Assembly (NCBI GenBank): GCA_950295325.1
Contig: OX485808.1
Span: 37,409,180-37,473,179, forward strand
DNA: 64,000 bases
Source: Polytrichum commune
Taxonomy: Eukaryota > Streptophyta > Polytrichopsida > Polytrichales > Polytrichaceae
Reading direction: 5' to 3'
Shown: one piece after another, positions 6,888 through 64,000 of the stretch
How positions within the stretch are numbered: position 1 is the first letter of the stretch
Layout: every line of letters starts with the position of its first letter
Made by a program: the position numbers and the translations under genes
Notes under the pieces: generated by a model
Databases searched by the model: none
Seen by the model: the letters and a program-made list of their open reading frames with translations, nothing else
What the model was told of the DNA's origin: nothing

Positions 6888-6890
6888 ACA

Positions 6891-27154: not shown

Positions 27155-27905
27155 TTATATTAAAATGCATAAAAGAATAAGATCACATGTATAGAATGTG
27201 ATACAGGTAGATCACTTAGTGCATTTTAAAAACGACGTGCGGTATAATATAGAGAGGATTAAAATCTTTTGAAATAAAAATTATAAAGGAATTCCAAATA
27301 ATGAAGGGGCCATTAAATGTAGACAATCCCATTATAAGTAAGTTAGATGGACATAAAATGTGGGCCATTATTTTTTTGTAAAATTAATATAGGGGCTGAA
27401 GGTAAGGATCCTAGAAGGTATGTTTAGTATGGTATGTAAATGGGTTTAGGACTCACGGGGATGTTTGCACCCTTCTTTGATTCCATGCTTTCCCTCAACA
27501 CTCGTCAATTGCGTTAGGAAGTAGATTAATTTTTATTACTTGAAAAGAATATAGAGTACAAAAAATTGCAGTGACTTGGTGAATATAAGTAATGGAAGGG
27601 TGCAAACAAATGGGCCATTTTTGAAATTTAAGTAATTATAGGGAGGTTTTAATTCAGCCCTTGAAAGTAAATAGCCCCAAAACCAAAAAAACCCCAGCCG
27701 CACGTGGTGCACAAAAATGCCTTAGAGTGATCTACCCGTGGAATGTGAACAACAATTTTCAATGATTAGATATTAAAATGTATAAAAGAATAAGATCACA
27801 TGTATAGAATGTGAACAAAAAATTTCAATGATTAAATATTAAAATGCATAAAAGAATAAGATCACATGTCTAGAATGTGAACAACAATTTTCAATGATTA
27901 AAGAC
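27155..27905. repeat. tandem repeat of about 75 bp, split by a MITE
   Basis: The unit ATTAAAATGCATAAAAGAAT followed by AAGATCACATGTATAGAATG occurs at about 27159, 27774 and 27837. The first unit is interrupted by the hAT-like MITE at 27202-27740; removing the MITE and one 8-bp duplication restores a regular array. Confidence 0.85.
27202..27740. mobile_element. hAT-like MITE, family B, copy 1
   Basis: A 539-bp element with inverted ends TACAGGTAGATCACT / CACGGGTAGATCACT. It is flanked by an exact 8-bp duplication GAATGTGA (27194-27201 and 27741-27748). The neighbouring tandem units supply the empty-site sequence. The right end carries a CACGTG G-box (GCCGCACGTGGTGCAC). Its outer 15 bp resemble family A, though the insides differ. 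No coding capacity. Confidence 0.9.
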
Positions 27906-33767: not shown

Positions 33768-36700
33768 TTATCTAGCATTAACATCACGAGCCATCGGTTT
33801 GATATTCCCTGAAATTACTAGTGGATCATTACTTGAAGCACAACTAGAGTTGGTGTACGCGGTAGAATTTGTATCAAATCCATCAAGAATGGGAAGCATT
33901 TCTAGCTCTCCAGGTTCAAAGCTATCGACATCACTCCAATCTCTCGCCCGTTGTGGAACTCCTTTGATAGCGAGAAGCTCGCTAACTACTTCTTTCATCG
34001 AGGGGCGGTCATGCCGCTGGTTTGCCAAACATCTGGAGGAAAGCTCCGCGACACCCTGAATCTCTTGTAGCATCTGTGTGAAATTCGACTCGTCTTTGTC
34101 GACCAGCTTCGGATCCATGATGGCCTCCACGTTCCCCATACGGACGAAGGGCAACACCATGGCCGTCAGATTGATGTCTTTCGAGTCTCGCTCAAAGTCA
34201 AGTGGCTTCAATGAGGTGATCAATTCCAGCAACACCACCCCAAAGCTGTACACATCGCTCTTCTCGGTGAGCTGATAGCTGTGAAAGTACTCGGGATCTA
34301 AATAGCCGGGTGTCCCTTGCACCGCAGTCGAGACATGGGTCGCGTCCGGCTTCACAAGCCTGGAGATCCCAAAGTCGGAAACTTTCACAACGTACTTGTC
34401 GTCCAATAAGATGTTGGATGTCTTTACATCTCTATGGTAAATCGGCGGATATGCAGCAGAATGGAGGTACCTGCAATTAAATCCAGACACAAGTCTAAAC
34501 TTCACAAGAATCCTCACGGAACACAAAGCAAGGCCACTCTTTAAGCATGTTAATCGTAGCCTTAAAAAAATCTTGGGTGACGTTATGAAATCACTCTCAA
34601 ACTCACCAGGAGTTTGATCCCCAAAACTTTGCGTATAACACTACTGTCCAAAAAGCAAAAGAAGTTATTGATATTTATGTATGAACGGATGCTTTTAGCT
34701 CTTTGTCAACCACGCAGTTACTCCACCATTAGTCTTATCTTTTAAATGGCAATTTGTGCTACAGTCTGCATTCCAAAATCAAAAATCGTTTCAACAAAGG
34801 AGTGTTGAAACTGGACCTTATCGGAGGTACAATTTCAATGGTTTCTACGCATTACTTGACTCCTCGTCAATAAAGATATAAGGACATCGAGTTTGACTTA
34901 CGCTAAAGCATCCGCCGTCTCTATTGCGATTTGCAACCGCTTCTCCCACCCCAAGTGCAACTCGGAGCGTTGGCCTTGCAAATGCTCCAGCAGATTTCCA
35001 TTTGGCACGTACTCGTAAACGAGCATGGGAACCTCAGTCTCCAAGCAACACCCATGCAACCTAACCAAGTTGCGATGATTCACTTGCGACAAAACTGACA
35101 CCTCGTTCACGAACTGCTGCGACCCGCTAGTGTCCACGTGGTTCGTCTTCTTGATAGCAACCTCCATCCCGTTGTCGAGCGTCCCTTTGTACACCGTGCC
35201 AAACCCACCCTCTCCCAGTATCCTTTCGGCCGCAAAGTTTTTGGTCGCCTTCTCGAGCTCTCTAAGACTGTACAATGTCGCCGTTTTCCCGTGCGAGTAG
35301 GAGGAGAAGAAGTCCTTCATGTTCCCTAGGGCCTCCAAATTTCGACGCTCAAAACGTTTCACTTTGCGGCGTTTCTGTACACAGCAGATGGTGATCAGGA
35401 CTCCCGCAGCTATAGTCACGAAACTCGTGCCTCCAACACCTGCACATAAACAAAAACTTATCCTCAATTCACAATGGTTATATGCTTTGAGCATCACCAA
35501 AGTATATGGCCATCCAGATCAACATCTCACACCAATATTAAATTTTGGCCAGTGCTGTCAAACGATGAATGAACTCCCCATGCTTGGTTTGGATATATCA
35601 AGCAGAATTATGTGCAAGATTGACAAATGAACTAACAAACATTACCAATTAAATTATAGGTAACAGTTAATTGTTGGTGTGCAATCCTACCTGCTATAAT
35701 TGCCACCTTGCTATTCGTTGCCGGGGTGGGGGTTGCACTTGCAGTGCACCGACTTCCATTGACAAAGCCATCACCCTTGAATCCCGCATTACAAGAGCAG
35801 TTATAAGCTCCCGGAGTGTTGGTGCAGGTTGCATTTGATGCACAAGAGTTCAATGATGGACTTGCACATTCATCAATGTCTGCAAGTAGCCAATGCCAAA
35901 CTTATGAGCTCGCCACAATTGCCCAGGAGTAATGAAGTACTCCTGCAATGGTCCTCGAATTTTGAAAACCGCCCATAGACCGAAAATTCACAAATACTTA
36001 GGTTCTTCCCAGTCAATTGGTGTTTTTGTACATTTCAATGAAATTACATAAGATTGCTCAGGGCAGTTTTTTTAGTGTACCTGTGCATCCAGTGGCGTTG
36101 AAACGAGTTCCATTAGCATAGCCATTACCAGTAAAGCCGGCAGGGCAGCTGCAAGTATAATTTCCAACGGTGTTGGTGCAGATTGCATACGGTGAGGAAC
36201 AAGTATTCAATGTTGCATTGTTGCATTCGTTGACATCTGCAGATATCCACAGGGCACTACGTCAAAGATGACCCCTTCAGGCAATTGAAAATTACTAGCC
36301 GATCATTAAAAGTGCGGCCCCAATGGGTCATGCGGGGAATCTGGACCTTGAAACGGAGGACCTGACCTAATTTTGTAACTTGTCAATGTGATGCACTCAA
36401 CATCAGGAGAAAGTGTTGAATTTAATCTAATTCAGACATGGAGGAGGTCCTAGAATGGTTTGCTGCATTTGACAAGATGTGATCTTTCTGAAACATTTCA
36501 CTTCATTCACAGGCAGTACGGTTGTTGAAATCAATCACAGTCTACAGATGTGCAGCTCTAGTTGAATCTTTACAAAAAGTGAAAAAAGATTCCAGTCTAG
36601 GCTTATCCGGTGGATTATTCTGCGGAAGATTCTTATCCAAAATCTCAGAAGATCAACGGAAAAGTACACAAATACAAATCCCGATGCAGCCACTGCCATT

Positions 36701-37883
36701 GCGTTACCCTTGTGCACACCCCACCGGTATCTCGCCCTAGAAATATCCAAACAAGTGGAGTTCTTGGAACAGACATGAAAACTACAGATCTTAACCAGAA
36801 TCTGGAGTTTAAAATAAAAAAATTAAACCTATTTCGCGACCATTTGCTTCCTTCAGAGGCTGGTAGGACGCTTTCTAAAGTATGTTGATAAGATTGATTA
36901 CCGATCATGTGCTCTAGTTGGATCTCCACGGACAACTCCCAGTTTAGGGTTAGGCGGTGGATTCCTCTGTACCAAATACTTATGCAGCATCTCAGAAGAT
37001 TCACAAAAACTTAGTAACAAAAATCAAACCCACCGATGCATCCAGTGCCATTGCTGTACCCATCACCCTGCCACCCTTGCAGGCACGCACATTGGAAGCC
37101 CGCCCCACTGGTGTCCGAACAAGTTGTATTCTCGGAACAGGTGGAGTTCCCGTCGACGCTGCAATTCCCCGGGAGGTACCACCCCAGCCTCATTCCCCAG
37201 GATCCAGTCCCGAAGGCCGAGGCCGAGGCCGTGGAATACGTCTCCGGGTAGATGATGCTCGCATACCCCCACGCCGTGGACCCGGCCACCTCGCTGGCGG
37301 TCATGTTCACCGTGCGCACGTTCTGCGGCACATCGGCGGCAGTGCAACACGCATAGTAGTCGCAGTACGCAACTTTGAATTGATTCACTGCCAAATTCTG
37401 GCAGGAGGGGTGTGTCCCCCCGTCCTGGTCGGTGGAGAACTGCGCGGTGGTATTGGCCCCGTAGCCGAACAGGACGTTAGAAGCGTCTATCAAGTAGGGT
37501 GATGTTTTGGCGACTTGGAAGGATATGGTCAGCGAGGAGTAAGTCAGTGCCTTTAGCGGCGTGGCGTCCAGGATTACGTAGGAGGTGTCCAGAGCTGTGA
37601 CCTGGTAAGTGCCCGACACAGTGGAGAGCATTAGGTTGCCATTGCTAAGACTACTGCTGTTGGTTGAGCAATTGAGCTGGAATCCGGGGAGGCCGCATCC
37701 TGCTCCTTTGATCCCAAACGGGTACGACACCGTCACGTTTCCGCACTTTTGAGAGCTGCATCCAGCAGATGCTGCGGCTACTACATCAGTCAATTGGAGA
37801 GTCAGTAGCAGGCTCAGAATTAAGGTGCAGGTTAATGTGGAAATTTGTAGCCTCACTTGCCTCAAGCGTTCCAAATTCCTCAT
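33768..37883 (-). CDS. wall-associated-kinase-like receptor kinase, gene 2
   Basis: Five exons at 37883-37034, 36236-36081, 35879-35691, 35439-34902 and 34470-33768. Each has exactly the length of its counterpart in gene 1, giving 811 residues. Domains are the same: signal peptide, GUB_WAK galacturonan-binding region, three EGF modules, membrane span and an RD kinase with [19 protein letters not shown] and DFG. No stop or frameshift is present. Compared with gene 1, 26 of the first 238 residues differ. The last 45 codons of exon 1 and all of exon 2 encode identical protein, and exons 3-5 differ at only about 7 residues. Clusters lie at residues 103-119 and 168-188. The start at 37883 was chosen for the signal peptide; an in-frame ATG at 38051 lies upstream. 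The protein likely sits in the plasma membrane as a cell-wall sensor. Confidence 0.93.
36682..36772 (-). pseudogene. relic EGF exon in intron 1 of WAKL gene 2
   Basis: Same dead EGF-exon copy as in gene 1, further shortened by a deletion (CATTGCGTTACCCTTGTGCA joins parts that are apart in gene 1). It confirms that the exon duplication and its decay began before the genes split. Confidence 0.65.
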
Positions 37884-38819
37884 GGTCTTCGGATCATCAA
37901 CAATTATGTAAGACAGTTGCTGCAGGTCCTTAGTAGTACTGTGCATGTCGAGATGATGCTGCTCGCGCCACGCTCTTGAAAATCGAGCGCAAAAATATTC
38001 TGCGCCCTCCCGAATTCTCCGCGGCCTCAACATCATCATGTGCATAATCAACGGCCCATTCTAGTAACCATCTGTCATGTTCTCCTGTAGGACTTGTAGC
38101 TAAAACTCTGACGAAATCTGCACTCACGCAATGATGAACAGAGGTAAGCCAGCCTCCTCCGTCGACTTGCTACGAAATAGCAACAGTGAGAGCACAGCAA
38201 CTTAGTAGCGTGACGTCCACATGAGCTCAATGACTTCCAAACCCCTTCCAACGCCACTGGAGGTGCCCTAATTCGGACAATCACCGCAGGAAGCTCCAGA
38301 ATTAGCAGCAGCTGCAGCCATGATTCCTGAATCTTAGACTCGACTCGAAGTCATCACCTTCTCTCTCATCTCACCTGATCCCTCCGCGTCATAAAATTTG
38401 GCCATTGACATTTTTGGCTGCTCCCGTGCTGCATAATAAACTCTCTGCAGATTTCGGGTTCTGCATATCTCCCTCAGATCAGCACCGCAACTTAGCATAA
38501 CTTAGCATAACTTCGCAATGCAGTTTGATTCAACTACCATGTCTCGCATCAGCTCATCTCCGCCAGGCACCTTGCAACAGACAGACACGAATTAGCACCC
38601 CACCAGGTAACTCTCCTCCTGAGCTACACAAGTAACTTACCCCACCGATGAAACCTTCGTTGCAGTTTCTCAGCACCTCCAAAAGCTCCGGTTGAATAAT
38701 ATCCCCTTTGAATTCGTGCCGCAACGATTTCTCGACTAGGCTTGATCTCAAGTCAACTACACTATACTGTATATGATATTAGTCACTTACTATGTGGAAT
38801 TCCGCAACACTCATGCAGT
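37884..38819. other. 5' flank and likely promoter side of WAKL gene 2
   Basis: Counterpart of 13313-14245. It includes a small tandem TAGCATAACT repeat (about 38494-38515) that gene 1 has once. No TATA box or other site was called with confidence. Confidence 0.35.
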
Positions 38820-45876: not shown

Positions 45877-46286
45877 CACGGGTAGATCACTCCATTGTCA
45901 AGTTGAACACCACGTGCGACCAAAAAAAATCTTCTTTTGGTAAGTTGCACCACCAAAATGGGTCAAAATTTTATCAATTTTTTTTCATGAGTAGATATAC
46001 ACAATACCTATGACATAATCAAAAGTGGTAACTAAATTTGATGATTTGTTTTTTTCATAAAACATACCATTTCTAACTAGAATGACACATAATTGAACTA
46101 AAACAATTACTAAAAAAAATAAAGATGACTAAAATTTTCAAAATAGTATTCAAAAGATACTATCAATGGTTATGTATATGTAGAAAAAATATCATAAATC
46201 TCAAAACTATATATGGCATGTAATATAGGGGTAGCAAACTTTGTCCGCACGTGGTGTCAACTTGACAATGAAGTGACCTCCCCGTG
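45877..46286. mobile_element. hAT-like MITE, family A, copy 2
   Basis: 410 bp, starting CACGGGTAGATCACTCC and ending in GACCTCCCCGTG. Exact 8-bp duplication CCGCCATG at 45869-45876 and 46287-46294. The termini carry G-boxes as in copy 1. The TIRs differ at several positions, so it is older than copy 1, or comes from a sister source that also gave 63457-63865. Confidence 0.92.
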
Positions 46287-47904
46287 CCGCCATGTAGGCG
46301 GCCATGTCATTTTATCATCCATGAGAAAAGTTCACCACCATTGTTTTCTTCACCTAGTGTAAACACCCACCGGTCAAGAGTTGCATTTTCGACCAATCAC
46401 AATTGAGAAACGCCCTTTTTTTCATGACCGGTGGACTTCTCCACCGTAGTGTAAACCGGCCCTTAGCAAGTGGCATGACTTTAGATTTTAGGATGCACCT
46501 AGAAGATATCCATCACCATACTAATGCCAAATGGGCATCATTTGTGTACACTTCAATTAACTTTAGACTATTGTGTAACATAGGCCTTGCACTTCATAAC
46601 ACTATTGAACATACTCATGCCAAGGTTCTAGTAATCTCAATTGAATGCCAAAAATAAATGATTTCAACCCTTGGTTAAACTAGAACATACATTCATTACA
46701 TGCATGCCCAAAAATGAAACCCATTTGTAGCAATTCTCCTTGAGGTCGATTTGGGGGAGGTGGTCGCACCCCCGACATGTCTACCTCAAGGATGGATTGT
46801 TGTAGTAGGATTCAAGCACAACTTCGTGTTACTAAAGGAAGCACATCGCAAATAAGCTAGCAAAACCTTGATGTCCAAAGGTGGTCCAAATAACTATTTG
46901 TGAAATCTAATTTTGGTGGCACACAGAGGGTTTTGAACAAGTACCGACTTGGCAGGTCTAGGGTGGATAGGGGGTGAGGATGACAGTTGGCACAAGAGTT
47001 GAAAAGGGAGGAAATCAACATAGCATCCACCATAAAAAGATGTTACTATCAATGGCAATTTCATTTCACTATTAAATCTATGTCACAAATAAACACCATT
47101 GGCACCAAAGAGAGCTCCCCAAAAGCAAAAGTACAACAAGGTTTATCCAACATCTCAACCTTCAAGAATGTTCAAGTGTCGAGAACAAGGCTGCCAATAA
47201 CGGCTATCTTACTGTGGGGTTTTTTTCCTCAGAAAGGATTAAGTTCAAATTGGGACATATAAGATTAGATCTTTATTACAATTTTAATCACATTAAATTT
47301 CACCAATTAATGAAGATGTAATTTTCCAATATAGACAATGATACTAGGAACATCATTCTTGAGAGGGTTCAATCCAAGTAGGTGCAACAAAAAACCACAC
47401 AAATTTACTCAGTGTCACCAGTATTATTGCTCTTGACAATGCTAATTGTGATGGGCATGTCTGCAAGCTACATGAAATATGAACTCAATAGTATAGGAAA
47501 AAAACCGAAAGGAGTGGAATCACAACTCACAATATATGATGGATCTCCATGACCAATATATGGAGAACAAACAGTTCTAATTTGTTCGAAGGCCGATAAC
47601 AGTGATGGGCAAGGTTGCCGAACAGTGATGTTGGGGGATTCAAGCTTCGGAGGTTGAGAGGTCGCAGGAGGTAAGGGGGGAAGAAAACTAGAGTAGAAGC
47701 GGCGTTACTGTTGCTCCTCAGTTCTTCCCCCCCCCCAGCCACCCGCCTCTTCGAAATCTGAAAGGACTCCGTCAACTACGGCCACCCCAACAAAACGGAT
47801 CTGCCTCAAGTATAAGACAAGCTGCTCAAGCGCACTTCCACAACCTGCCTCCACATCCCTACCGCTACCGCTTCATCGAAACAGATCCACTGTTGAGGCA
47901 CCAC
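46287..47904. other. gene-less stretch
   Basis: A fragment at about 46351-46465 has partly inverted CCACCGGTCA / TGACCGGTGG motifs and ends GGTTTACACTACGG-like, perhaps another Harbinger-like remnant. Otherwise short frames only; a C-run at 47727-47735. Confidence 0.4.
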
Positions 47905-49090
47905 AGGAGAGACACCGTTGACGGAGCTCGACATCAGAAGGAGAGACATCGCCGCCGAGAGACTACCTGTTTACTGAAGGAGAGACATCACTGAGACATC
48001 GAAGGAAAGACATCGCTGAGGCACCGGAGGAGAGACATCACTAAGACACCGAGGGAGAAACATCGCCGAGGCACCGAAGGAGAGACATCGTTGAGACACC
48101 GAAAGAAGACACTGCTGAGACACCGAAGGAAGACACTGCTGAGACACCGAAGAAGAGACATCGCCGAAGCACCGAAGGAGAATTATTGCTGACGGAGTTT
48201 TGACACCAACAGGAGAAACGTCGTTGCGGAGAGCCCATTGCTCTATCGAAGGAGAGACACCGTTGCCGAAAAGACCCACTGTTACCATAGTCAACTCTAA
48301 CCCACAGTGCACCGTAGTGCTGAGAGATATATGCTTTAAACAACACTGTTGGGTTTGCATTAGAGATACTTGGATCTGCTAGTTTGTAGCAAAGATCCAC
48401 CAAATCTTCCATTCTGATCAAAATATTAGATTCATAGTACAGACTGTTGTCTGCCGAAGGTAGAGAGAAGGGTCCCGAGAGAAACTACCACAATACTTAG
48501 ACTACCGCATGTTGTGACTACAGAGTACTGCAGCAAGTATTACAGGAGTTGGTAAAGTTGTAGCCGACACCCATTAGATTGATATCATTGTCTAGAGAGC
48601 CAAAGAACACCTACCGATCTACTGAGGGCTGAACTTGTTGAATACAGAGAGTGCACTAAGAGTACCAACTCCATCCAGTACCTTAGTACGAGTGCAGATA
48701 GTAAGCTGATCTACTGAATGAGGAAACGGCCAACTGACACCGATCACTGTAGAAGAGAACCCAACACAGATAGATATAGTAGTGCATATCAAACCCGCAT
48801 ACTCTGATTCTTCCACTTAGATCTCATTAGTGAGTGCATTCTGGACCTGCACCGAAAGCTGAAGAAAATAAGTATCAAGTAGTTCAAATATCAATCTCTA
48901 GAAATAACCAGTGGGTGAAGAAGATATCTTGTTGCTCCTGCACCGAAATTTCTTGGCTCTGCACCAAAGTTTCAGGCTCCGCACCGAAGTCTCTACACCA
49001 AACAAACCCAAGCCAAGCAGGAGTTGCGGCAACCTCAAACGGACCTCAAGACCTGGAATGCAGCTTTGCACCGAACGGAGGATTGTGAAA
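47905..49090. repeat. degenerate CACCGAA minisatellite region
   Basis: Between about 47935 and 48260 a variable 20-30-base unit around GACACCGAAGGAGAGACATC repeats more than ten times. Further on (48848-49078) the motif GCACCGAA or GCACCAAA recurs five more times. Open minus-strand frames over it (47971-48421) are repeats of one peptide pattern and not convincing genes. Whether it belongs to the LINE downstream is unknown. Confidence 0.6.
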
Positions 49091-49623
49091 ATCTGCTGCC
49101 GAGACAAAAACTGCTGCCGAAACAGAAGGTGTTGGTGTATTAAGGTAAGGACTTCTAAAACCGAAACCTTTTTCAATTTCAGTTGCATATAGAGGAAACT
49201 ACACAAGCACTCACTTAGCTTAGCACATTAGCCACTCATAACAGGGCAGCTCTCACATTAAACACAAACACACTAATTCACAAAGTAAAACTTTTTGTTG
49301 CAAGAATCCTCACTTAGAGCGCACCCACTAGGAGAATAGACACATAGCATTTCAATTCCTAGTAGTAGAAGTAGGTTACTTAGAAAAATGAGGTTTGCTC
49401 ATGCAACCTTCATTACTCTTGTTTTCTGGCTCACAGCCACTTCATATTGGATAAACTCTCATGGTACACACTCTCACACATTCTATGCATGCTTCTTCCC
49501 TACAAACAACATCCAAACAGGCCCACAACTTAATTTGTGGAATGGAGTTGTAACAGGGGTAATAAACTTTGCTATATCTCCACAAAAATATGTCACTTAC
49601 TTAAAAATTGTACTTGTAACAGA
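49091..49623. other. possible 5' leader of the LINE
   Basis: No repeat end or target duplication marks where the LINE starts. A frame at 49388-49702 (+) overlaps ORF1 in another frame and is not supported as a gene. Confidence 0.3.
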
Positions 49624-51130
49624 ATGTCTTCATCCGCCAACGTTGCTGCCACTACTAGGAAACTTTTTGAGCAAAAAAATGATAATATGGATATTGTGTT
49701 GAATGGTCAAAAACGGTCAGTCGGGGTAATGATTGTATCAAGCCAAAAAAAGGCTAAGGGGAAAGAAATCGCCCCCCAACGCCCCCCCCTTTTGGTTTGG
49801 ATACCATACACTCAATACACTAGCATGTGACAATGGTGAAATGTTAGAACCTACTCTTTTAGTTAGTGAACTCATAAGATTTGGGATGGAACATAATGAC
49901 GCATTAGAACACTTAGAAGCTTTTCCCTCATTTCCATACATTCCCCAAGAAGCTTGGCCTTCTAAGAGATTGGATGGAAAAGAGGGCGGGCATTTTAACC
50001 TTACTCAAGTTCCGTTTGATGTTGAGGTTGATGAAAATGGATTTTCTCTAGATTATCAAATTGCCATAGCATTTGAGTTATGTGATCGAAATCTAACAAG
50101 AGATGAAATCTATGCAAAAACGGAAGCTAGACTGGAAAAAATGAACATTCAACTAGGAGAAGTGCTAGATGACCCGATTGCTATACTTTATTTTCACGGC
50201 TCTAAGAGGTGGAGTGGAACAATTAAACTCCACATCAAGAATCCGTTAAAAGATGCTAATGATCTCTTACTAGGAATAAGATCATTCATCCTCAAATTGG
50301 ACAACATTTCTTATTGTAGGGAAAAGGTCTTCAAGTCGTTTGACTCAATAGCAATAGCAAGTTTACTTTCGGTTAAAATTTCTAGTCCAACACTCAAGGA
50401 CAAGAAATGGTTCCAACTACATGAGGAGATAGTAAATGATAGCTTCAAACGAGGATATGAGTTTGAAGTTACCAACGTACAAAAAAATGATAATACAGAA
50501 TTTGCTTGGATAAAAACCCCATCCCCGGACCAAGCTAAGAAAATTAAAACTTACAAGATTTCATTCTTTAATGAAATCATGGAAGTTAACTTTGCTAGTA
50601 CCGAGAAACTTTCAGAGGATGACAAAGCTAGGAAAAATATGGTGGTTTTAATTGCAAAAAACCAAAACAAAACCAAAACAACCGCTGCCTTAGAGGAGGG
50701 AATAAAGAAACTCTTTGGAGATGAAAACGTAGCGGGTATTTTCTTCCGATTAGAAAAAAGAAAACATGTGGGTTCATGCAATGTGCAGTGTCTAAACGCA
50801 GCGGTATACAAGAAATATGTGAAGCAAAATCACCTAATTCTTGGCAAATACGTTGAATTTTCACCCCATCCCAAAAGCCTAGATGGAATTGACGCGCCCT
50901 CCCCAATAGAACTTACTAGACTTGGGTTTTCGGATGTGAATACCGCACTTGCAAACACAATCCAAGCAATGGAAAAAACACCTTCGAAAGGATACACAAA
51001 AGCGGACTTAAGCAAGATGGTTAAAGAGGCGGTAAATAAACGGGCAGTAGTAATTCGGAAAGAGATGAGCCTCCTTAAAGAGGAAATTGTAGAAGAAGCA
51101 AGAATGTATGCCGATAAAGTACAAGCATAA
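49624..51130 (+). CDS. LINE ORF1 protein, RRM-like
   Basis: Best start is ATG 49624 (MSSSANVAATTRKLFEQKN). One frame change occurs at the C-runs near 49772-49790; from there 49791-51130 is fully open. The protein would be about 500 residues with a basic N-terminus (SSQKKAKGKE). A region near residues 140-200 (WSGTIKLHIKNP) and another near 340-420 (MVVLIAKN, then VAGIFFRLE and LGKYVEFSPHP) have the beta-alpha-beta spacing of RRM folds. The C-terminus is a charged helix, perhaps a coiled coil. LINE ORF1 proteins typically bind their own RNA. Unlike ORF2, base composition is not strongly C-over-G. RRM is inferred from pattern, not from an alignment. Confidence 0.7.
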
Positions 51131-51244
51131 TCAAATCGCAACTCAAGAATTCAAATTGCACTCCTCCAAAAGCAAATGCGCATCACCCTCGAAACCCTCC
51201 AAGCGGATCACCCCGACACACCCGAAATTGAAGGTCATATGGAC

Positions 51245-51715
51245 ACGTCAAACTAGTTTTGACATTCGTAGCGACAAGGAAAAACAAAACAAAAGTATAT
51301 TTTTATACAAAATACAACAAAAATAAATTCAAATACCATATAGTATTACTAAATACTAGAAGTAAAAAATGAGTTTCTACATACGTAACATCAAGAAAAC
51401 ATAAAATAAAAGTATGTTTCTATACAAAACACAAAAACAAATACCGTATAGTATTATTAAATACTATACGTATAAAAAAAATTATATACAAAACAACAAG
51501 TAAATATAAAATATAAAATAATTATATATAAAATACAATAAAAAAACAATACAAACACCGTATAGTATTCTTCAACACTATACGGACAAGATTAATTCTG
51601 ACATACGTAATATCAAAAACATATAATATAAAATTATATTTATATACAAAATACAACAAACATATTTACAAATACCGTATAGTATTATTAAATGATATAT
51701 GTAAAAAACTCACAA
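51245..51715 (+). repeat. four tandem units of about 115 bp, each with a hairpin
   Basis: Hairpins start near 51335, 51445, 51558 and 51676, so the spacing is 110-118 bp. The second has perfect 11-bp arms CGTATAGTATT / AATACTATACG around ATTA (51445-51470). The third has perfect 9-bp arms CCGTATAGT / ACTATACGG (51558-51585). The first and fourth are worn. Between hairpins the units share ACATACGTAA, ATCAA and TATACAAAATACAACA. It lies between ORF1 and ORF2 and could be a promoter, RNA-structure or translation element. Confidence 0.8.
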
Positions 51716-51956
51716 CACACATTCTAAAACCAAACAAAACAATCATAGCACTTACCAATACCATTCTAAGAATACAAATAAATAAAATAAAAACAAAGAC
51801 GCCCATTAAACACACAATAATCAACACACAGACAAATAAACAACCGGTATCACACAATAAAAAGACGCTCACACAAACTAAAAGGTTACTCACAACTAAT
51901 ATAAAAATAAGAATATTCACCAAACTCCTTATAAAACACCAAACAAAATACCAAAT

Positions 51957-52146
51957 GGCCTCGGCCTGCCGGCCTCGCCACAAAAATAAATAAACAATAT
52001 ACCCACACCTACACGAATCCTATCACAACCACTTTATACACATAAAATATAAATCTCATTCTAAACATAAACTTTAATTGAAACATCGCCTTCAACATAA
52101 AACGGCCTCGGCCTCCCGGCCTCCCGGCCTCGCCACAAAAATAAAA
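51957..52146 (+). repeat. paired GC-rich islands in the LINE spacer
   Basis: GGCCTCGGCCTGCCGGCCTC at 51957-51976 and GGCCTCGGCCTCCCGGCCTC at 52104-52123 are both followed by CGCCACAAAAATAAA; the second has an extra CCCGGCCT unit. They stand out in an A-rich, G-poor spacer. The role is unknown. Confidence 0.75.
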
Positions 52147-52244
52147 ACAAATACCAAATCGTAAACAACTGGACACCTAACACAATAACAGACCACACAC
52201 CTAAAGACAACACAAATACACACTTCTCAACCAAACAAATATGA

Positions 52245-54112
52245 AACAAAATACCCGCCTTACCTAACATTTTTACAACAACTAGATTCATACTTACCAA
52301 ATATCTAGAAATAAACAAGAAAAAACCAAAAACGATACAACTTCATGGGTACTACTTCATTAACAAACTAACATTATTAAAATGTGGAGATATAAAACCC
52401 AACCCTGGACCAATGCCTGATATTTTACACACACATCCCGCTTCACACAAAAAGAGAGCCAAAGAATATTTTATTCCAAATACGATAAAACTGCAACTCG
52501 AATATCAACACATAGCTACCACATTTGAACCCATACTAAAACATAATCATCCATTACATCACCAAACAACCACTATGTATACATACTTACATCAATACAT
52601 CCAAACACAAAGCCATTCCCCATCAACTCACATACTATACGCCTTAATCATCACTATAAACCCCTCAATAAACACATGTACCAATATACTAGCCCAACCA
52701 CACATTAACCACTTTAACAATATATGGACCAACACACTTATTATTAGGCTAGCCAACCTTAACAACCCTCCCGAATGGCATATTCTAACACAACATCCAT
52801 ACACTACATTTGTAGAAAATAACCAAGATATAATACTCCCAAAAAATACTATACATACTGAACTATATGAATTCATCCACGGCCAAGAAACCCCACTTAC
52901 TCCAGCCACACTCCAAAGAAAATTTCCCTATCTTCCAGAAAAATTAATAACCGAATTTCTCCGATACCTAGAAAACATAAACGAATACTCACACCCGCCT
53001 CCACTCCCAAACACCCCTACACCAACTTCAAGAAACGTCATAAATATCAATCACGAAACAAACATGATAACTTGGAATGCCTCATCGCTTAACACAGCCT
53101 TACCAAATCTACAAAGCCTAATAAACTACTTCTTCAGAAACACTGCAATCATTAATATCCAAGAAACCAAATTGACAACAACTAAATCAACAAAATACAT
53201 ACTAAATTTATTCCCTGAATACAAACTTATTTTTACCAACACGCACGCCCTCACAAGATGTATACAACAAATAATGCCTTACACCCCCGGAAGAGGTGGC
53301 CTACTCACACTAATTCATAACAAATACGCATTTCCCGGAAACGTCACCAAGATCTCTTCACCAGCAAACATTTCTCCATACTTACAAATAAACAATCACC
53401 CACTCCTATCATGGCTAATCATACACATGTATATGCCCACACACTTAGAAGATATCCACCTCATTCCGTACCTCAAAACCGCAATCACTAATCAAATCAT
53501 TGCACATCCAAACCACACGCACATCCTATGTGGTGATTTTAACCGAGACATTGCACTCACTGGTAGACAAAACTATAACAATAACACACCTTCACAAGAA
53601 GAAGACATACAATGAAAAAACTTCACCACAACCCTCAATTTAGAATATATTCCTACGGACACTATCCTCTCTAGACAATGAAGCTATAATTACACATCAA
53701 CCAACCTTATAGACGGCTTCTATATCAACTCACCAGACAATAACAGATTCACCTCCAAAACAAACACAGACATGAATCTAAACTCATACCACTACCCATT
53801 CATTCTGCACATACCCCAAAACACACTTATAGCTAGACCCCTACTCCCCACGAATATCACACCAACCAGAATACTAAACCCAATCCCTCCGGAAAACTTA
53901 GAAAAATTCAATATAGAATTTATCGAAACATACTCCACGCAACTAAACGAACTAACCAAATTACTAGAGGACCACAACCACCTCAACCCTGATCAATGGC
54001 AAGAAGCCTGTGAAACACTACACAATATTGTAGAAAAAATCTCTTAAACCATTGAAAAAACCTGCAAAGCACCCCAATACCATCCCTCACGAACAAAACT
54101 GCACAGCAAGGT
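52245..54112 (+). pseudogene. LINE ORF2: N-domain and APE endonuclease
   Basis: After the NPGP motif comes an unassigned domain of about 215 residues, then an exonuclease-endonuclease-phosphatase fold from about 53060. Catalytic-type blocks are visible in order: TWNASSLN, IQETKL, GRGGLLTLI, IHMYMPT, CGDFNRD and, past two stops, NLIDGFYI. This enzyme nicks target DNA to prime reverse transcription. In-frame stops are TGA at 53613, TGA at 53678 and TAA at 54043. The frame changes near 54110 and the reading continues in another frame to about 54386. Confidence 0.8.
52371..52415 (+). other. 2A-like motif just before the ORF2 ATG
   Basis: Translation in the ORF2 frame gives LLKCGDIKPNPGP directly before the first methionine (52413). 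Established 2A peptides follow DxExNPGP and cause ribosome skipping before the last proline; here K stands where E is usual, so activity is doubtful. The frame is open upstream to 52245 without any ATG. Similar NPGP motifs are known at the N-termini of several LINE ORF2 proteins. Confidence 0.65.
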
Positions 54113-54499
54113 GGCTTCCTGCCACGAAAGCTATCTAAAGAATGGAAAAAACACCTTGAAACATATCACCTTATTAGAAAAACTATATACATTGCAAAAA
54201 ACAACCCACACTGGTAAACTCACCCTATCTTAAATGAAATTCGAAATCACCAAAATGTATTAATCCCACACACACCCACAACAACCACTCCTCCAAATGA
54301 ATGGATAGACATCATAGCTGCCATCGCAAAAACTGCTAATAAAGACGCCAGAAAAATCACCAAAAAAAATCCAAAGACTGTATTCTAAAAGTTGTATCAA
54401 AATACCAACAAATGTATGAAAAAACCCCAAAAAGATAAATATGAAAGTCTTCAAACACTCCGAAACCTCCCCCCTAGACTCCATCACGGATAGACAAAA

Positions 54500-56560
54500 C
54501 AATATCCTAACTAGCCCTGAAGACATTGCAAAAGAAATACACATCCAACAATCCATCAGTAACCGCCCAACAGTACCCACATGTCACTATCATAATATTC
54601 ACCCACCATACTGCACATGAGGTGTTAGGCAATACCCATGGCACGACCTAGAAGGATTTACAATCGATCAACGTGGTGAACCCCAAATTCCCCTGCACAC
54701 ATACTTTGACCAAGAAACATACGACTTCTGCCTTAAAAACCTAGGCAACAACAAAACTCCGGGCCCAGACAAAATTCCTAATTCAATCTTAAAAAATATG
54801 CCCCCACGGTTTCACAAACTACTCTATTTATTCTTCAAACACTGCTACAAACAAAAGCAAATTCCCGCATCGTGGAAAACCAGTTTAACAATTTTACTAT
54901 ATAAGAAAGGTGACCCGTCAAAACTTACCAACCACAGATCTATCGCACTAGCTAACACCATATATAAATTATATACAAACACACTAACATCTATCATTTC
55001 AGCTTATGGGGAAAGATACCAAATATTGCATAACAGCCAAAAAGGATTTAGAGCTGAAAGAGGAACATCTAGGCAACTTCAACTCCTCATTGCAGCATTA
55101 GAAGATGCTAGACTTACGAACCAAGATATATACATCCTCTACATCGACTTCAAAAATGCTTTCGGCTCCATTGACCATGCAAGACTTTTATCCATAATGA
55201 AGGACATGGGCTATCCAACTGACGCCATAAACCTCGTCGGGAACATATACTCACAAGCATCTACCATATTTACGGGAGAACACTTTGGTAAAACCCTACC
55301 TATCCCCATTCAAAGAGGTACAATACAAGGAGACACTCTCAGCCCATATTTATTTATAATATTTTTAGAACCCCTCCTTAGATGCCTACACCAAGGCGAT
55401 AATGGATATACCTTCGGAACATCTAAAGAAAAAATTACATCCGCAGCATATGCAGATGACTTGGCAGCTATTGCTAACAAATTAAAATCATTACAAGTAC
55501 AACTAAATAAATTAGACAAATTCTGCGGATGGGCAAGAATGGACCTCGGAATACCCAAATGCGCTATGACCGGATGTCCTAATAAATCAAAAATTAATCC
55601 CATAACATTCAAAGCCTTGATCCAATCTACTAATATAAATTATAGAAACCAACCAATTCCAGTTTTAAACCAACACGAACCATACACTTATCTTAGAATA
55701 AACCTCGCACCTTCACTTAAATGAAAAACACAAATAAACACCACTACAACAAAAATTATCAAACAATGTCAAGCCCTCGTAGCATGCCCAGCCACCATGA
55801 AGCAAAAAATCAACATGGCAGACACAGTCATACGTGCTGGAATAGCCTATAGCTTTTATGCAGTACAATACTCTATTCCGGCCATAAAAAAACTCGACAA
55901 AAAGATTATAACACTCCACAAGACAATATGCGGATTACTGAAATGTACATCTAATATTGCTACACAACTTCCACATGATCTATTCGGAATTAAAGCATTC
56001 TCACTATAAAATGCCTACCTGCGCTGTATTGGAGAACAACTATAAAACGCCCTCAATGACAAAGGTAGACTTGGCAAAATCTATTATGGCTTGACATAAT
56101 TTATACTAGCTAAATTTGGAGGCTCCAAAGAAATAACCCGCATTAAATACCACCACTACGTTAGATTACCTATCACCAGAACGTTATTCCTACTCAAACA
56201 TGAAGCTGGAGTCCACCTAAAAAGCACAATAGATACATTTCTATTAAATCCGTCCCCACTCGAAACCGCATGGTTGAAAGAAGCACAAAACCTACAGGGC
56301 CTAAATCCCAACACTTCACTTAAACTATTACAAAAACTTCTATTGCATAATATAATAAAATTAGAACAAATAATCATGCCCAACGGTGTCACCTTAATGA
56401 ACCCAGATGACTTTAAAATATACCACTCCAACCCTACAAAACTCATAAAGAGTGCATTAAACATTGCAAACCAATTATTCTGCCACCCTTCCTGTCACCG
56501 AGAATGTCCACTCCCATGCCCACACCACTATCCTCCACGAACCCTAAAAATGATTATACA
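54500..56560 (+). pseudogene. LINE ORF2: reverse transcriptase
   Basis: Open at 54798-55724 with the order TPGPDKIP (54752 onward), LLYKKGDP, HRSIAL, YIDFKNAF (motif A, about 55140), RGTIQGDTLSP (motif B), AAYADDLA (motif C, YADD at about 55449) and YLRINLAP. All catalytic aspartates are kept. Stops include TGA at about 54617 and TGA at about 55722; the latter follows PSLK where related enzymes usually have Trp. Downstream, the same frame runs on to about 56564 with several TAA stops. The sequence resembles, from memory, LINEs of oomycetes, Glomeromycota and green algae more than plant L1; this is untested. Confidence 0.85.
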
Positions 56561-57226
56561 ATAATAAACCACAACATCCTTCCTCAACACCCAACTCCCC
56601 CTATACACACCCCGAACCCCCCGGTCCCCCACCTACCCCCACCTCCCAATAATATGCTTAAAAACCCCCGTAAATTTCTCATACACACAATACTTGACCA
56701 CAAACAACGACAACTCACAGATTCTAATGGGATACAAAGAAAAGACACATCATATCTATGCCAATGGATTACCCCAAATAATAATACATACAACAAATGG
56801 CGCACCCAAAGAGATTTATTCCCCTATTGTGACGCATATACTAGTCATCACAACACCGAACTACTTACCCAATATTATACAAAAAGACAACACAAACACT
56901 TCTCAAACATTATCAATGCATACTTCTCCATAGAACAACAACGAGACACTAAATACGTTATCCCTGCCACAATTATCCCATTGGCACATATCTTCATTAA
57001 TGAATGCAATCCAGAGAGTGACATCGAAACAAATACTAACACTATCCAAACACAATTCGACGTCGCTCACATATATGAAGACAACGGTCGGCACCTCATT
57101 ACCATCTCAAAAACTAGATTATTGTGGTTATGGAAACAATACCATCAAGCTAAAGATACCCCACATAATCTAGAACCACCTACCCAATCATTTGAAACAG
57201 AAATCGTGTGGCTATACCAAAGGTAA
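56504..57226 (+). pseudogene. LINE ORF2: proline-rich linker
   Basis: A frame distinct from the RT part. A proline-rich run (about 56580-56640) is followed by about 180 residues with no recognised fold. It joins by frame change to the methyltransferase-like region near 57210. Confidence 0.5.
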
Positions 57227-58380
57227 AATACCGTATTCCAAAAAACGATCAACTTAAACTTGCCCAATATACAATACCAACTCCAATACTAGACTTCCTA
57301 ATAACATCCTTCAATATCAACCATTCATACTTCTCATCCCCAGTTACTTGCTCCATACAAGTCACCCAATTCCACTCACCATTCTCCAGGGATAGAATAT
57401 TTGGATCCCTAGGAAAAGCGTTTGACCAAAAATGGAAGGGAATTGGTTACGCCCACCCCCATAACGCAACAGACTTACAACAAGCCATCCATTGGGCCCG
57501 CATTGCGGCCAAAAATGATCTAAATACAATCACTATACTTATTTCAAAAGATATGAATTGGTACCACAATTTTAACCCATATACTGGCCCATTCTCGGAC
57601 ACACACATCATTGCCCACTTTGCAGCAGACACCATTATATACGAAGAACCCACAATTCCCCCCGAACTCAATATCACGAGGAAAGAATTATCAACATTAC
57701 GAATATTCTGTATCCACCACCAAAACAATCACATCGGTACCTACGAACAAATGAATCAACTCCCCAACATAGCAAATAACCTCCAAATATTACAAATTCA
57801 CACACAAATTGCACCACCCACCCCCGTGAATACCGCCGTTAACCCTAGCAAAAAATGGGCTAAATCTAACTACCCAAACACACCCGTAAATAATAACACA
57901 CCTATTCCACAACTCCCAGATTACCAAACTAACTTACCACTAAAATTCCACCCTCAATTCATCTACTACACAGACGGTTCTTTCATGAAACCCAAAGAAA
58001 TTAACCCTGGAGTATGGAGAAGAGAAAGAGCCGGCTATGGAATCTATAGCCCCAAGGGCCTTAACATCTCCAAAAGACTACATGGACACCAAAACATACT
58101 ACGAGCATAAATGATAGCAATACATGAAACACTAACAACCATTAATACATTATACCCAAACGAACCCGCATACATATTTACCGACAGTCTAAACGTATTA
58201 CACTTACTCAACACACAAATTAAACACCCCACACTTCACAATAGCCACCCGACCAAATTACCCTCGCCACCATGGTACAACTACTTCAAAACTGGACACA
58301 ACCAATCACACTATACAAAGTTAGAGCACACATCAACATTGACGGCAACGAACAAGCAGACAAATTGGCAAAAGAAGGAC
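57208..58380 (+). pseudogene. LINE ORF2: methyltransferase-like region and RNase H
   Basis: At about 57330-57720, FSRDRIFGSLGKAFDQKWKG then AHPHN, ILISKDMNWYHNF and EEP match the order of blocks in phage Dam-type adenine methyltransferases (...F.DAF...W.G...NPPY...WI.KA), but NPPY is replaced by AHPHN, so it would be inactive. RNase H follows: YYTDGSF (about 57964), then FTDSLNV (about 58178). The usual catalytic Glu in RAE is a TAA stop here (58108-58110). Its last block, HINIDGNEQADKLAKEG, is in another frame from 58272. The methyltransferase call is a hunch; the RNase H is firm. Confidence 0.6.
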
Positions 58381-59428
58381 TAGAACTAGAGCACAGAATT
58401 GCCATTCATCCATATGAGCATGCTCATGCCACCCCATACTACTACCAAAAGGACATTTGGGCCTCAATGACGGACGTTCCTGATAAAGGCCCCGTTAGAT
58501 TCCTAGAAAAACAAATTATTAAATACGATAGGGAAAACAACTTGGAAAACATGGCCACACAAACCCCCAACACTTACAAATGGACAGGAAATGCAGATAT
58601 AGATAAAGAACTTTCTAACGAATTCTGGGAAAACCCGGAAGTCACGGATAAACAAAAATCATGCCTCATCAAATTCCGAACAGGAACCTATATGGGCAAT
58701 GCTCGAAAACAATTGTTCTTCGGTAGACAAACATATCCCTCTATTACATGCCCCATTTGCACCTCATACGAACCGGACACGTGGTTACATGTACTACTTA
58801 CGTGTAAACAACAACATATACATTCACTCCACGTCAAAAGACACAACAAAGCAGTATGGGAAATTAGGAAACTACTAATCTCATATGAGAAATCTAGATG
58901 TTATACTCTCATGAATGTTGGCACTTTCAATAATACACCCTAGGAAAACACCATTCCCAACTGGCTACTTCCTTGCACATGCGGTACACAAAGATGCCAT
59001 TGTAACTCCATATTTAGACCTGACATCCTCTGTGTTAGAGGATTACCATACCAAAATGACCCCCCCCCCCCACAGACTTGGACCCCAACCTCACCATACA
59101 ATTCCTTGAATTTACATACTGTAATGATAGATTCTCTCCAGAAACACTCGAAGCAGAAAATAACAAGTACAAACCATTAATTGATAGTATTGCTGCTAGA
59201 GGATGGAAAGTTGACCCCCTTATTATAATCACCGCTGGCGCTAGAGCCACTACACACATTCCTTCAATGAAATCACTCAAAAATAAATTTAAAATACCTA
59301 TGTCTACCATTAAAAATACCTTTAAAAACATCAATACTATCGCTATAAAATATGCCATGACTATCCTCCTACACAAAAGAAGAATAGAAAACCATCAACC
59401 ACTACCCCAAACACTAGACCCCCCTTAG
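58272..59428 (+). pseudogene. LINE ORF2: RNase H end, cysteine clusters, RLE-like endonuclease
   Basis: Starts with the final RNase H block. Next is CPICTSYEPDTWLHVLLTC (about 58750-58800), a C2HC finger. After a TAG (58941-58943) come CTCGTQRCHC and FRPDILCVRG (about 58970-59035). After a C-run and frame change, IQFLEFTYCNDRFSPE then NNKYKPL and VDPLIIITAGARATTH follow. The RPD...EFT...K order and the preceding cysteines are typical of the PD-(D/E)XK restriction-like endonuclease of R2-type LINEs. The C-terminus reads ILLHKRRIENHQPLPQ and stops at 59428. Confidence 0.75.
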
Positions 59429-59660
59429 ATAAAGCCATAAAACCTTAACAACTAAGCTACTCCACCCCATCCACTAACAATGAACTAGAAACATGGCGAC
59501 CCAAATCTTACTAACAACCCCCCCCCCCCCTAATAACTAATCATTTTGGTTTGTGTTACTAGTGACTGGTGACTATAGTGTCTACTCTCGAAAGGGAGGA
59601 GTAGATCTTCACCTCCATACCTTTGTCTTGTGGGCATTGGATTGGAAGAGGATCAAACAG
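59429..59660. other. LINE 3' tail and flank
   Basis: A short A/C-rich 3' untranslated stretch ends in a C-run at about 59517-59530. I cannot find a poly-A tail or a target duplication that would fix the end. The composition returns to ordinary after about 59540. Confidence 0.4.
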
Positions 59661-60223
59661 CACGGGTAGGTCACTTAGTGCATTTTAAAAACGACGTGCG
59701 GCATAATATAGAGAGGATTAAAATCATTTGAAATAAAAATTATAAAGGAATTTCAAATAATGAAGGGGCCATTAAATGTAGACAATCCCATTATAAGTAA
59801 GTTAGATGGACATAAAATGTGGGCCATTATTTTTTTGTAATTTTAATATAGGGGCTGAAGATAAGGATCCTAGAAGGTATGTTTAGTATGTTTGCTATGG
59901 TCTCCTATGTGTTTTCTTCATAACTTTGTTTGCAATGATAATACTTGTTTGCACCCTTCTTTGTTTCCATGGTTTCCCTTAACACTCGTCAATGCGTTAG
60001 GAAGTAGATTAGCTTTTATTACTTAAAAATAATATAGAGTACAAAAAATTACAATGACTTGGACAATATAAGTAATGGAAGGGTGCAAACAAATGGGCCA
60101 TTTTTGAAATTTAAGTAATTATAGGGAGGCTTTAATTCAGCCCTTGAAGGTAAATAGCCCCAAAACAAAAAAAACCCCAGCCGCACGTGGTGCACAAAAA
60201 TGCCTTAGAGTGACCTACCCGTG
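59661..60223. mobile_element. hAT-like MITE, family B, copy 2
   Basis: 563 bp with ends CACGGGTAGGTCACTTAG / CACGGGTAGGTCACTCTAAG. Flanks TCAAACAG (59653-59660) and TCGAACAG (60224-60231) are an 8-bp duplication with one change. It aligns with 27202-27740 through most of its length, including GCACGTGGTGCAC near the right end. Confidence 0.88.
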
Positions 60224-62012
60224 TCGAACAGACACTTCATTCACGTCGGTCTCTTCGGAGTTTTCTCCTCAATAGTATAGATTATCGGTTGTTAAAAAAG
60301 GTATTGTATTTACGATGTTGCAATTATCGTCATCACTTCGTGTTTTTCAGTCAACCAATACAATATTACATTACATTACATAAGATATAGAATATACCAA
60401 AACGAACGGATTTAACTATTAACAATTTGGGAAGATAGTGGTTGTCAACTCATTGGAAAGCAATCACAATTATATAAAGTAACATATCACTTTGATATCA
60501 CTAAATACAATGTAGTTTAGGATCCAATGAGTGGGAGATGGACTCAACAAGATTGGGAGTTTTCACCCAAGAGTTGGATATGAGGAGGTGATTCTTAAAA
60601 ATATCATAGAAGATAAGGATGCAAGACATGCATCCAACATGGAGCATACAAACCCTCGTCTTAAACTTGAGTTGATAGCATGAGAACTCATAATATTATG
60701 AAACATGGCATTGCTCATACGGTGTTGAAGGGGATTTCACAAATATATTATGCACTACCATTTTCTCAATGCACGGCATAAGAACAAATCATTGTGAAAG
60801 GAAATCCCCCGTGCCATAGGTCTCCATACTGAAAGACCTCACAACAATGATGTAAGCAAATGAATTGTCAAATTCATATATATATATATATATATAAATA
60901 AAAATCACCAAGTATCAAATTAAAAATTTGAATAAAAAGGGGAAAATATATTTAAAAAACTAGGTGAAAATGGATTAGAATCCCGTGCACTACCCTCGTT
61001 GTCGATTGTCAGGTTCTTTGCCTTAACCTTGATACAAATAACGTCTCCTAAAAAGGGATCAAGATCCTCTAGACTTGAAGAATGATGTAGCATAGGAGGA
61101 AGATAGCCTTGGTATGGTGGTTTGATGAAGTATTCTACGAAAGCAAAAGCCTTCAAACTAATGGTCGACACACAAAGACAATCAAATAACCAATATGTGT
61201 AAACTATGAGTAGGAAAATGAAAAATGTGGTCAAAGAGTAGCAAAATATTTCTTACTTGTTTTCCAAGGACATCTCCCTTCATGAGGGATAGTATATTAA
61301 TGCAAGACCAACTCTCAAAGACATGAAACCCGAATTTCTAAATGTTTTTCTCTCTACAAGCAATTTATTGCATATCATCCGCACATAATATAAAATACAT
61401 TTAATCTTATGCTAGGTAGGTTTTGCAAATTCGAAATGTTTATCTTTGGTATCTAGCATCAAAATCAATCCAATAGGAAATATGTGATCCAAATTGGGTA
61501 TGTGAGACTAGCAAATCATATAGTATGTTGATAATGGTAAGATCAACATCATATACAAACACTTTGCCATTGATATGGATATGTTATGATTAAATTTGTG
61601 GATTTACTAGCATTATAAAGATTTACTAAGGATTTAGAAAGTAGGTAAGTTGCTAAGAATTGTGGTAAGTTCTAGAAGATATTGGTGAGGTGGCCATTGC
61701 TTGCTAATGTCCAAAGTCGATAGAACGGTGACAAGGCTTACAACTTATCAAGATGACGGGATAGGAGATTATATATATATAAGATTTATGTGTTATATCT
61801 ACGAGTAAGTAGATTTAGGGTAATTCTAGTGAAACTTCATAATTCATAGTATTTAAAGGCTCTTGGCCAAGAGTTCAAGACCTTCTTCTAGTGCTTATGG
61901 GAGTGATAATGTGACATACGATAGACTTGAGTGTTGGAATTATGAGTAGAGTTTGTATTAAGGCCTCGGCCTTGAGAATCTAACAACGGGTGAGAGCTAC
62001 ATACATTTTCGG

Positions 62013-63456: not shown

Positions 63457-63865
63457 CACGGGTAGATCACTCCATTGTCAAGTTGAACACCACGTGCGAC
63501 CAAAACAAATCTTCTTTTGGTAAGTTGCACCACCAAAATGGGTCAAAATTTTATCAATTTTTTTTCATGAGTAGATATACACAGTACCTATGACATGGGT
63601 AAAAGTGGTAACTAAATTTGATGATTTGTTTTTTTCATAAAACATACCGTTTCTAACTAGAATGACACATAATTGAACTAAAACATTTATTAAAAAAACA
63701 AATATGGCTAAAATTTTCAAAAATATATACAAAAGATACTATCAATGGTTATGTATATGTAGAAAAAATATCATAAATTTTAAAATTATATATGGCATGT
63801 AATATAGGGGTAGCAAACTTTGTCCGCACGTGGTGTCAACTTGACAATGAAGTGACCTCCCCGTG
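63457..63865. mobile_element. hAT-like MITE, family A, copy 3
   Basis: 409 bp, starting CACGGGTAGATCACTCC and ending GACCTCCCCGTG. Exact 8-bp duplication CTTCTTCC at 63449-63456 and 63866-63873. It is closest to copy 2 (45877-46286), sharing its TIR differences from copy 1. Confidence 0.92.
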
Positions 63866-64000
63866 CTTCTTCCTTAAAACTTGCCTTTGTTGATTTTGAA
63901 GACACCACTATGGACCATGTCCGCAGTATGGCATACAATAGGAGTTATGGTCTAGAATTACACCTTCCTCGAAGCTAGCATGCAATATGACCCCCAATTT

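Follow-up and report, generated by a model that had tools for sequence, protein, structure and literature searches.

Within a 64,000-nucleotide stretch of the Polytrichum commune genome (contig OX485808.1, positions 37,409,180 to 37,473,179 of the forward strand; this whole stretch is called the window below), positions 47497-60267 hold a long interspersed nuclear element (LINE). It is very probably a dual-endonuclease LINE, in which an apurinic/apyrimidinic endonuclease (APE) and a predicted restriction-like endonuclease (RLE) stand in one element. The window element is probably a decayed member of a LINE family that is autonomous, recently active, Dualen-like and equipped with these two endonucleases. 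The evidence comes mainly from related copies in the same genome, which has 408 Mb, nearly all of it in seven contigs of 42-78 Mb; the copies are given L-numbers where they have to be told apart. LEAFY domains and a contig with plastid rbcL mark the genome as that of a land plant, and rbcL ends and chromosome numbers suggest a seedless one, probably a moss with n=7. All positions are those of the window, and all parts of the element lie on the + strand.

A large LINE family with long open reading frames

In two related copies, L054 and L053, one continuous frame of open reading frame 2 (ORF2) holds APE, reverse transcriptase (RT), a conserved region, a PCIF1-like stretch, ribonuclease H (RNase H) and a cysteine-rich C-terminus. 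Among the scored places of the genome search, open frames of 2625 codons are found at no fewer than three places, and frames of 2919 and 2924 codons were also seen. Searching the genome with a C-terminal piece of this copy of the window yielded 3747 first-look candidates; each of the 150 that were scored had E ≤1.9e-62. With a 101-base piece of the window copy's 3′ untranslated region (UTR) there were 338 candidates, and 40 of them were scored. These candidate numbers are not copy counts, and the counts are lower bounds. Six copies (L039-L043 and L048) are pairwise 97.6-99.7% identical across about 1.75 kb, and this near-identity suggests recent activity. Taken together, the sequences suggest a LINE family that is both large and recently active.

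At least three subfamilies can be distinguished, represented by L054, by L053 and by L064/L065, with L069 being the 3′ part adjoining L064. The RT is 80% identical between L054 and L053, and L064 shares only 61-63% identity with either of them. Subfamilies this deep within one genome argue against a very recent arrival of the LINE family. Searches for relatives in viral contigs and in prokaryote contigs found none, and four pieces from the PCIF1-like and RLE parts had no counterpart in PHROGs.

APE, a predicted RLE and RNase H

An earlier note on this DNA, made from the letters alone, had proposed a plant LINE with two predicted endonucleases plus RNase H, and APE, RT, RNase H and an R2-like C-terminus are indeed present in one element. 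The C-terminal region (58606-59425) contains a CCHC knuckle, RHN, CxC...CxC and RPD...EFT...KY. An alignment of five copies, drawn from three subfamilies, shows no variation in the knuckle (C-x2-C-x9-H-x4-C), RHN, CxC...CxC, PD, EFTY, K and KY, and RPD is found in 14 of 15 distinct copies. An RLE-type pattern is present in all three subfamily copies tested and never occurred when each was shuffled 100000 times. R2 elements have a C-terminal CCHC plus PD...E...K layout, with the order CCHC, RHN, PD, E, K. From motif, order and conservation, the C-terminus is predicted to be a restriction-like endonuclease.

The APE domain (53067-53849) carries WNASS, QETK, GDFN and LIDGF in the window copy, where the Pfam profile Exo_endo_phos stays below its cut-off (E 1.3e-4; 22.3 bits vs 24.5). 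The same profile exceeds the cut-off in L053 (25.5 vs 24.5), and the APE region of L054 matches exodeoxyribonuclease III of NCBIfam (E 0.005). The domain is 70% identical between L054 and L053, both of which have WNAS, QETK, GDFN and SDH. The RNase H domain (57934-58395) is recognizable in the window copy by its motif blocks, and its RNase_H match (E 5e-4) falls below the cut-off; frame changes cut the domain. All six relatives searched (L045, L046, L048, L053, L054 and L069) clear the RNase_H cut-off with E values from 1e-11 to 4e-15, and the relatives have the full D-E-D-H-D set. For plant L1, PMC4640811 cites, and partly doubts, a report of an archaeal-like RNase H in which Arg replaces His; since the His is kept here, the RNase H of this LINE family is unlike that type.

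Rough omega values were estimated for two pairs of copies. For L054 and L045, omega is 0.064 in the APE part, 0.054 in the RT part, 0.072 in the PCIF1-like stretch, 0.084 in RNase H and 0.063 in the RLE. For L054 and L053, it is 0.122 (APE), 0.065 (RT), 0.145 (RNase H) and 0.097 (RLE), the PCIF1-like value not being computable. Judged from these sequence comparisons, purifying selection on both endonuclease regions is strong (omega 0.06-0.12, as compared with 0.05-0.07 for the RT; 0.06-0.10 for the RLE region), and in the nearer pair, L054 and L045, the endonucleases are constrained at about the level of the RT.

Position of the reverse transcriptase

The RT domain (54687-55961), with its YADD motif, matches RVT_1 in the window copy with E 2e-26, and RVT_1 is also above cut-off in four of the four relatives' pieces that have the whole or most of the domain (L045, L048, L053 and L054). 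When an RT profile was compared with PDB sequences, the best matches were R2 chains (9nl2, 120 bits; 9nl3, 109; 9dou, 109), and human L1 scored 72-74 bits. We then placed the RT in a tree of 13 sequences: four of the LINE family, six L1-type sequences picked by eye from the same genome, human L1 and two R2 sequences. The tree has several long branches, its root is for drawing only, and L066 was excluded, having no open frame around its YADD-like motif. The L1 group (the six genomic sequences and human L1) is split from the LINE family with support 100/98. An RT inside ordinary plant L1 would have counted against the reading of the earlier note; the tree puts the family outside, and an ordinary plant L1 is therefore rejected.

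Plant L1 elements have APE before and RNase H after the RT, and show dispersed insertion with short duplications. The LINE family shares this domain order, the scattered insertion and the short duplications, but differs in an RT outside L1, a kept RNase H His and an R2-like C-terminus. R2 elements lack APE and RNase H and target ribosomal DNA. They resemble the LINE family as the best PDB match of the RT (9nl2, 9nl3, 9dou and 8gh6 being the R2 entries compared) and, as far as the general layout of R2 goes, in the C-terminal CCHC plus PD...E...K. The difference is that the LINE family has APE and RNase H and sits at unrelated sites.

Ends and target sites

The window copy is bounded by 13-bp target-site duplications CTCAATAGTATAG at 47484-47496 and 60268-60280. 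The earlier note had given the element as 52245-59428, which is too short, as the duplications place it at 47497-60267 with its start about 4.7 kb further upstream. Matching duplications were found in all four copies tested, with 12 bp in each of L055, L056 and L057. Matches of this length arose in 14 of 1000 shuffled flanks for the window copy, and in 4, 11 and 0 of 1000 for L055, L056 and L057, respectively. L056 is the one copy whose duplication directly adjoins the start of similarity to another copy. The 5′ ends of L055 and L057 are less sure because the L055 duplication lies about 480 bases upstream of the similarity start, and the 5′ region of L057 is different upstream of ORF1. The 5′ region of L055 and L056 contains repeats of about 80-160 bp, which are arranged differently in these two otherwise 98% identical copies.

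By eye, the 3′ ends share a common UTR and a terminal hairpin, followed by a short pyrimidine-rich repeat, (CTT)n-type or (CTAT)n; in this comparison, which included seven minus-strand copies (L039-L044 and L047), no end was recognized in L031 and L032, and some loci represent one copy twice. Site-specific insertion was considered and rejected, as the flanks beyond the 3′ ends differ among copies by eye.

Relation to Dualen/RandI

Dualen/RandI LINEs are said to have been first described from green algae by Kojima and Fujiwara in 2005. In the excerpts available of the papers cited in this section, Dualen is described as having APE and RLE in one element (PMC4640811, PMC3636483), and PMC4640811 gives RNase H as a Dualen/RandI feature and reads Dualen, with both endonucleases, as a sign that APE replaced RLE. 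Dualen/RandI is reported from green algae (PMC4438587) and relatives of Chlamydomonas (PMC8226300), and the 3′ tails of green-algal RandI are (ATT)n and (CTATTT)n (PMC3747384). Dualen/RandI also appears in class tables of PMC5753468 and PMC4455052, and Dualen is not named in the excerpted main text of PMC5348765. Among the matches listed from the open-licence literature, and in the extracts that these offer, no land-plant Dualen LINE was recognized.

The strongest rival explanation is that the element is of the known Dualen/RandI type, an algal group that simply persists in land plants, unchanged in parts and mechanism, and is perhaps already annotated elsewhere. We regard this as a serious possibility, somewhat short of an even case. 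The LINE family is like Dualen/RandI as excerpted in its APE and RLE (here predicted) within one element, its RNase H, its short non-A 3′ repeats and its RT outside L1 (PMC4640811, PMC3747384); the tails here are (CTT)n-type and (CTAT)n vs (ATT)n and (CTATTT)n in RandI. In addition, repeat programs have applied LINE/Dualen labels in other eukaryotes, namely in cryptophytes (PMC12747079) and in Besnoitia, an apicomplexan annotated with RepeatModeler (PMC9714946), again according to excerpts. On the other hand, the host here is a land plant, and the excerpted Dualen descriptions, with which the comparison was made by description only, contain no PCIF1-like stretch and no 2A-like site.

Is the C-terminus an endonuclease?

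Several points weigh against a LINE with two endonucleases. As for the C-terminus, one of the 15 distinct copies (L024) has RPN instead of RPD, and the RLE pattern follows the general layout of R2-type endonucleases, its spacing ranges having been set after the sequences were known. The earlier note had suggested a PD-(D/E)XK likeness for this region, which motif, order and selection favor, but the C-terminal region matched no nuclease in five PDB sequence searches. A profile spanning the RT to the end of the protein matches R2 in PDB within the RT only, and AlphaFold single-sequence models of two window pieces are too poor to use (mean pLDDT 43 and 31). Elements with an RLE are usually site-specific, unlike this LINE family. 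The R2-type sequences 8gh6 (67 bits) and 8ibw (63 bits) score below human L1, and "nearest to R2" is therefore true for some R2s only. As for the APE, the Pfam profile clears its cut-off in one relative only (L053), with no Exo_endo_phos match in L054 (E up to 10) or in the L045 piece (E up to 1), and the evidence for both the APE and the 2A-like site comes from outside the third subfamily (L064, L065 and L069). Finally, between L054 and L053 the constraint on both endonucleases falls somewhat short of that on the RT, and all omega values are rough because silent sites are near saturation.

These points could be accommodated by an APE-only LINE, whose C-terminus would be a cysteine-rich DNA- or RNA-binding tail with RPD...EFT...KY arising by chance or left as a dead remnant. 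Such a LINE would agree with a C-terminus that matches no nuclease profile, and the dispersed insertion with 12-13-bp duplications is explicable by APE alone. We nevertheless consider it improbable, because the five aligned copies of three subfamilies all keep P, D, E and K and RPD is so widely kept, the C-terminus is under strong purifying selection, and the order of CCHC, RHN, PD, E and K is that of R2, to which the best PDB match of the RT also belongs. A chimera, in which an R2-like element nested in an L1-like one is mistaken for a single element, might be suspected from a broken window copy with at least one nested insertion, but is scarcely credible, since in each of two subfamilies every part lies, in the same order, within a single open frame (2625 and 2919 codons), and the duplications match at the outer ends of the copies tested.

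The PCIF1-like stretch

Between the RT and RNase H, two further regions of the LINE are conserved. The first (56654-57226) has omega values of 0.11 and 0.27 in relatives. A chromodomain, suggested by eye at about 56.65-57.2 kb, was rejected, as there was no Pfam CHROMO match and no believable PDB match. The second (57208-57756) is similar to PF12237 (PCIF1_WW) but lacks the catalytic NPPF. According to the excerpt available of PMC7641849, Pfam PCIF1_WW is a CAPAM-like methyltransferase and not a WW domain. PF12237 is above its cut-off (31.1 bits) in five relatives (L045, L046, L048, L053 and L054) and in all 150 scored places out of 697 candidates in the genome. L069, whose 3′ half was examined, holds the PCIF1-like, RNase H and C-terminal parts. 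When PDB was searched with the PCIF1-like stretch at E up to 10, PCIF1 chains were the only matches (E 0.025 and 1.5; 0.14 and 0.26). What speaks against a PCIF1 domain is that PF12237 stays below cut-off in the window copy (E 4e-7, 30.2 bits) and in L069, and that the similarity spans only part of the domain and does not include NPPF.

NPPF is the catalytic motif of PCIF1. Compared with PCIF1/CAPAM, the cap-specific adenosine methyltransferase (6irv, 6irx), the similarity runs for about 75-90 residues and reaches as far as the catalytic motif; the LINE version differs in lying inside ORF2 and in having NPPF exchanged for HPHN, HPPN or FPTD in the three subfamilies, where 6irv has anppf. This replacement makes methyl transfer by the usual means unlikely. 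As a guess, the PCIF1-like part may bind RNA or the cap. No PCIF1 domain in a retrotransposon was found among the matches listed from the open-licence literature searched.

ORF1, leader and 2A-like site

The element begins with a 5′ region (47497-49339), placed by its position between the duplication and ORF1, with no alignment to a relative. ORF1 (49340-51130) consists of two same-frame pieces, 49340-49702 and 49733-51130, the second of which is 59% identical over the aligned part to the 747-codon ORF1 frame of L055. ORF1 gave no Pfam match, and L055 ORF1 gave no NCBIfam match. A hydrophobic N-terminal stretch (49340-49702, and the start of the L055 ORF1 frame) is in frame with ORF1 and looks similar between subfamilies by eye.

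A leader (51131-52385) connects ORF1 to a 2A-like site; it is interrupted by stops in the window copy and open in L054 and L053. In relatives it has 281 or 582 codons and is poorly conserved (omega about 0.5), and conservation between L054 and L053 begins at the 2A-like site. The ORF2 frame of the leader has 0 stops, as compared with 21 and 20 in the other frames of L054 and 28 and 42 in those of L053, and of the 1000 base shuffles made for each of these two copies, none was open. Since it is open in the ORF2 frame alone, we infer that the leader is translated. At the end of ORF1 in L054, 22 bases are shared with the leader frame. The window copy then has GDIKPNPGP (52386-52412), and relatives have GDIEPNPGP or GDIETNPGP, which we take to be a 2A motif; in L054 and L053, GDIExNPGP stands in the same frame as the ORF2 domains.

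The sense strand of ORF2 is poor in G, with 11-12% (52001-58000 of the window, and ORF2 of L054 and L053), vs 21% in the ORF1 part of L054; the leader has about 6% G. The GC skew of the window drops to -0.57. Within the leader, 51255-51692 is a diverged tandem repeat of CCGTATAGTATT units.

The window copy and its surroundings

All motif blocks named in the earlier note were recovered on the + strand: QETK at 53160, GDFN at 53532, YADD at 55449, YTDGS at 57967, TDSLN at 58180, GNEQAD at 58344, CPIC at 58749, RPD at 59016 and EFTY at 59108. While right on these blocks, the note had overlooked ORF1, the 2A-like site, the PCIF1-like stretch, the family size and the recent activity.

It is evident that ORF2 of the window copy is broken. 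It is collinear with L054 through five matches, which change frames, partly overlap and contain 23 stops; a sixth match (24% identity, 6 stops) was excluded from this stop count. RVT_1 alone clears its curated Pfam cut-off in this copy, whereas Exo_endo_phos, PCIF1_WW and RNase_H do not. In the APE domain, SDH is altered to SYH and there are internal stops. RNase H has a frame change and a stop at 58108, where relatives have the E of the set. RPD and EFT are in different frames, and a run of 12 C (59060-59071) lies between them. The 3′ UTR (59429-60267), compared by eye with other 3′ ends, retains a remnant of the terminal hairpin, and a nested insertion with inverted repeats (59661-60223) divides it.

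This insertion and 27203-27740 are two copies of a short element, 89% identical. In the copy inside the LINE, the inverted ends read CACGGGTAGGTCAC, and the flanks, TCAAACAG and TCGAACAG, resemble an 8-bp duplication of the kind seen with hAT-like miniature inverted-repeat transposable elements. Elsewhere in the window, 6888-14249 and 31643-38818 form a duplication, 95-98% identical, with genes that by eye are wall-associated-kinase-like, and a repeat of about 411 bp occurs in three copies (4983-5392, 45877-46287 and 63457-63866), two of which are 95% identical.

A possible division of labor and its meaning

If the window element derives from an autonomous dual-endonuclease LINE, its parts could share the work as follows, a proposal that we hold tentatively and with more doubt than confidence. 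The ORF1 protein would bind RNA. The leader would be translated, and the 2A-like site would release the ORF2 protein. One endonuclease would nick the target, most likely the APE because insertion sites are dispersed, and the RT would prime at this nick from the 3′ hairpin-tail. RNase H would remove the template, and the RLE, as in R2, would make the cut in the second strand or at the junction. Without a methyltransferase motif, the PCIF1-like part might bind RNA or the cap for self-recognition. Going further, one could picture a land-plant LINE clade that uses both endonucleases, one for each strand or step, together with a captured and catalytically altered PCIF1/CAPAM domain recognizing capped RNA of its own; in this full form the idea is unlikely.

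For retrotransposon use of a cap-modifying enzyme, no example was found among the matches listed from the open-licence literature searched, and a PCIF1-derived part in a retrotransposon, if true, would be a new link from RNA-cap biology to mobile elements. LINEs are classed by the endonuclease that they use. If the two-endonuclease reading is true, the role of two endonucleases in one element would become testable outside green algae, in a recently active family of a land plant.

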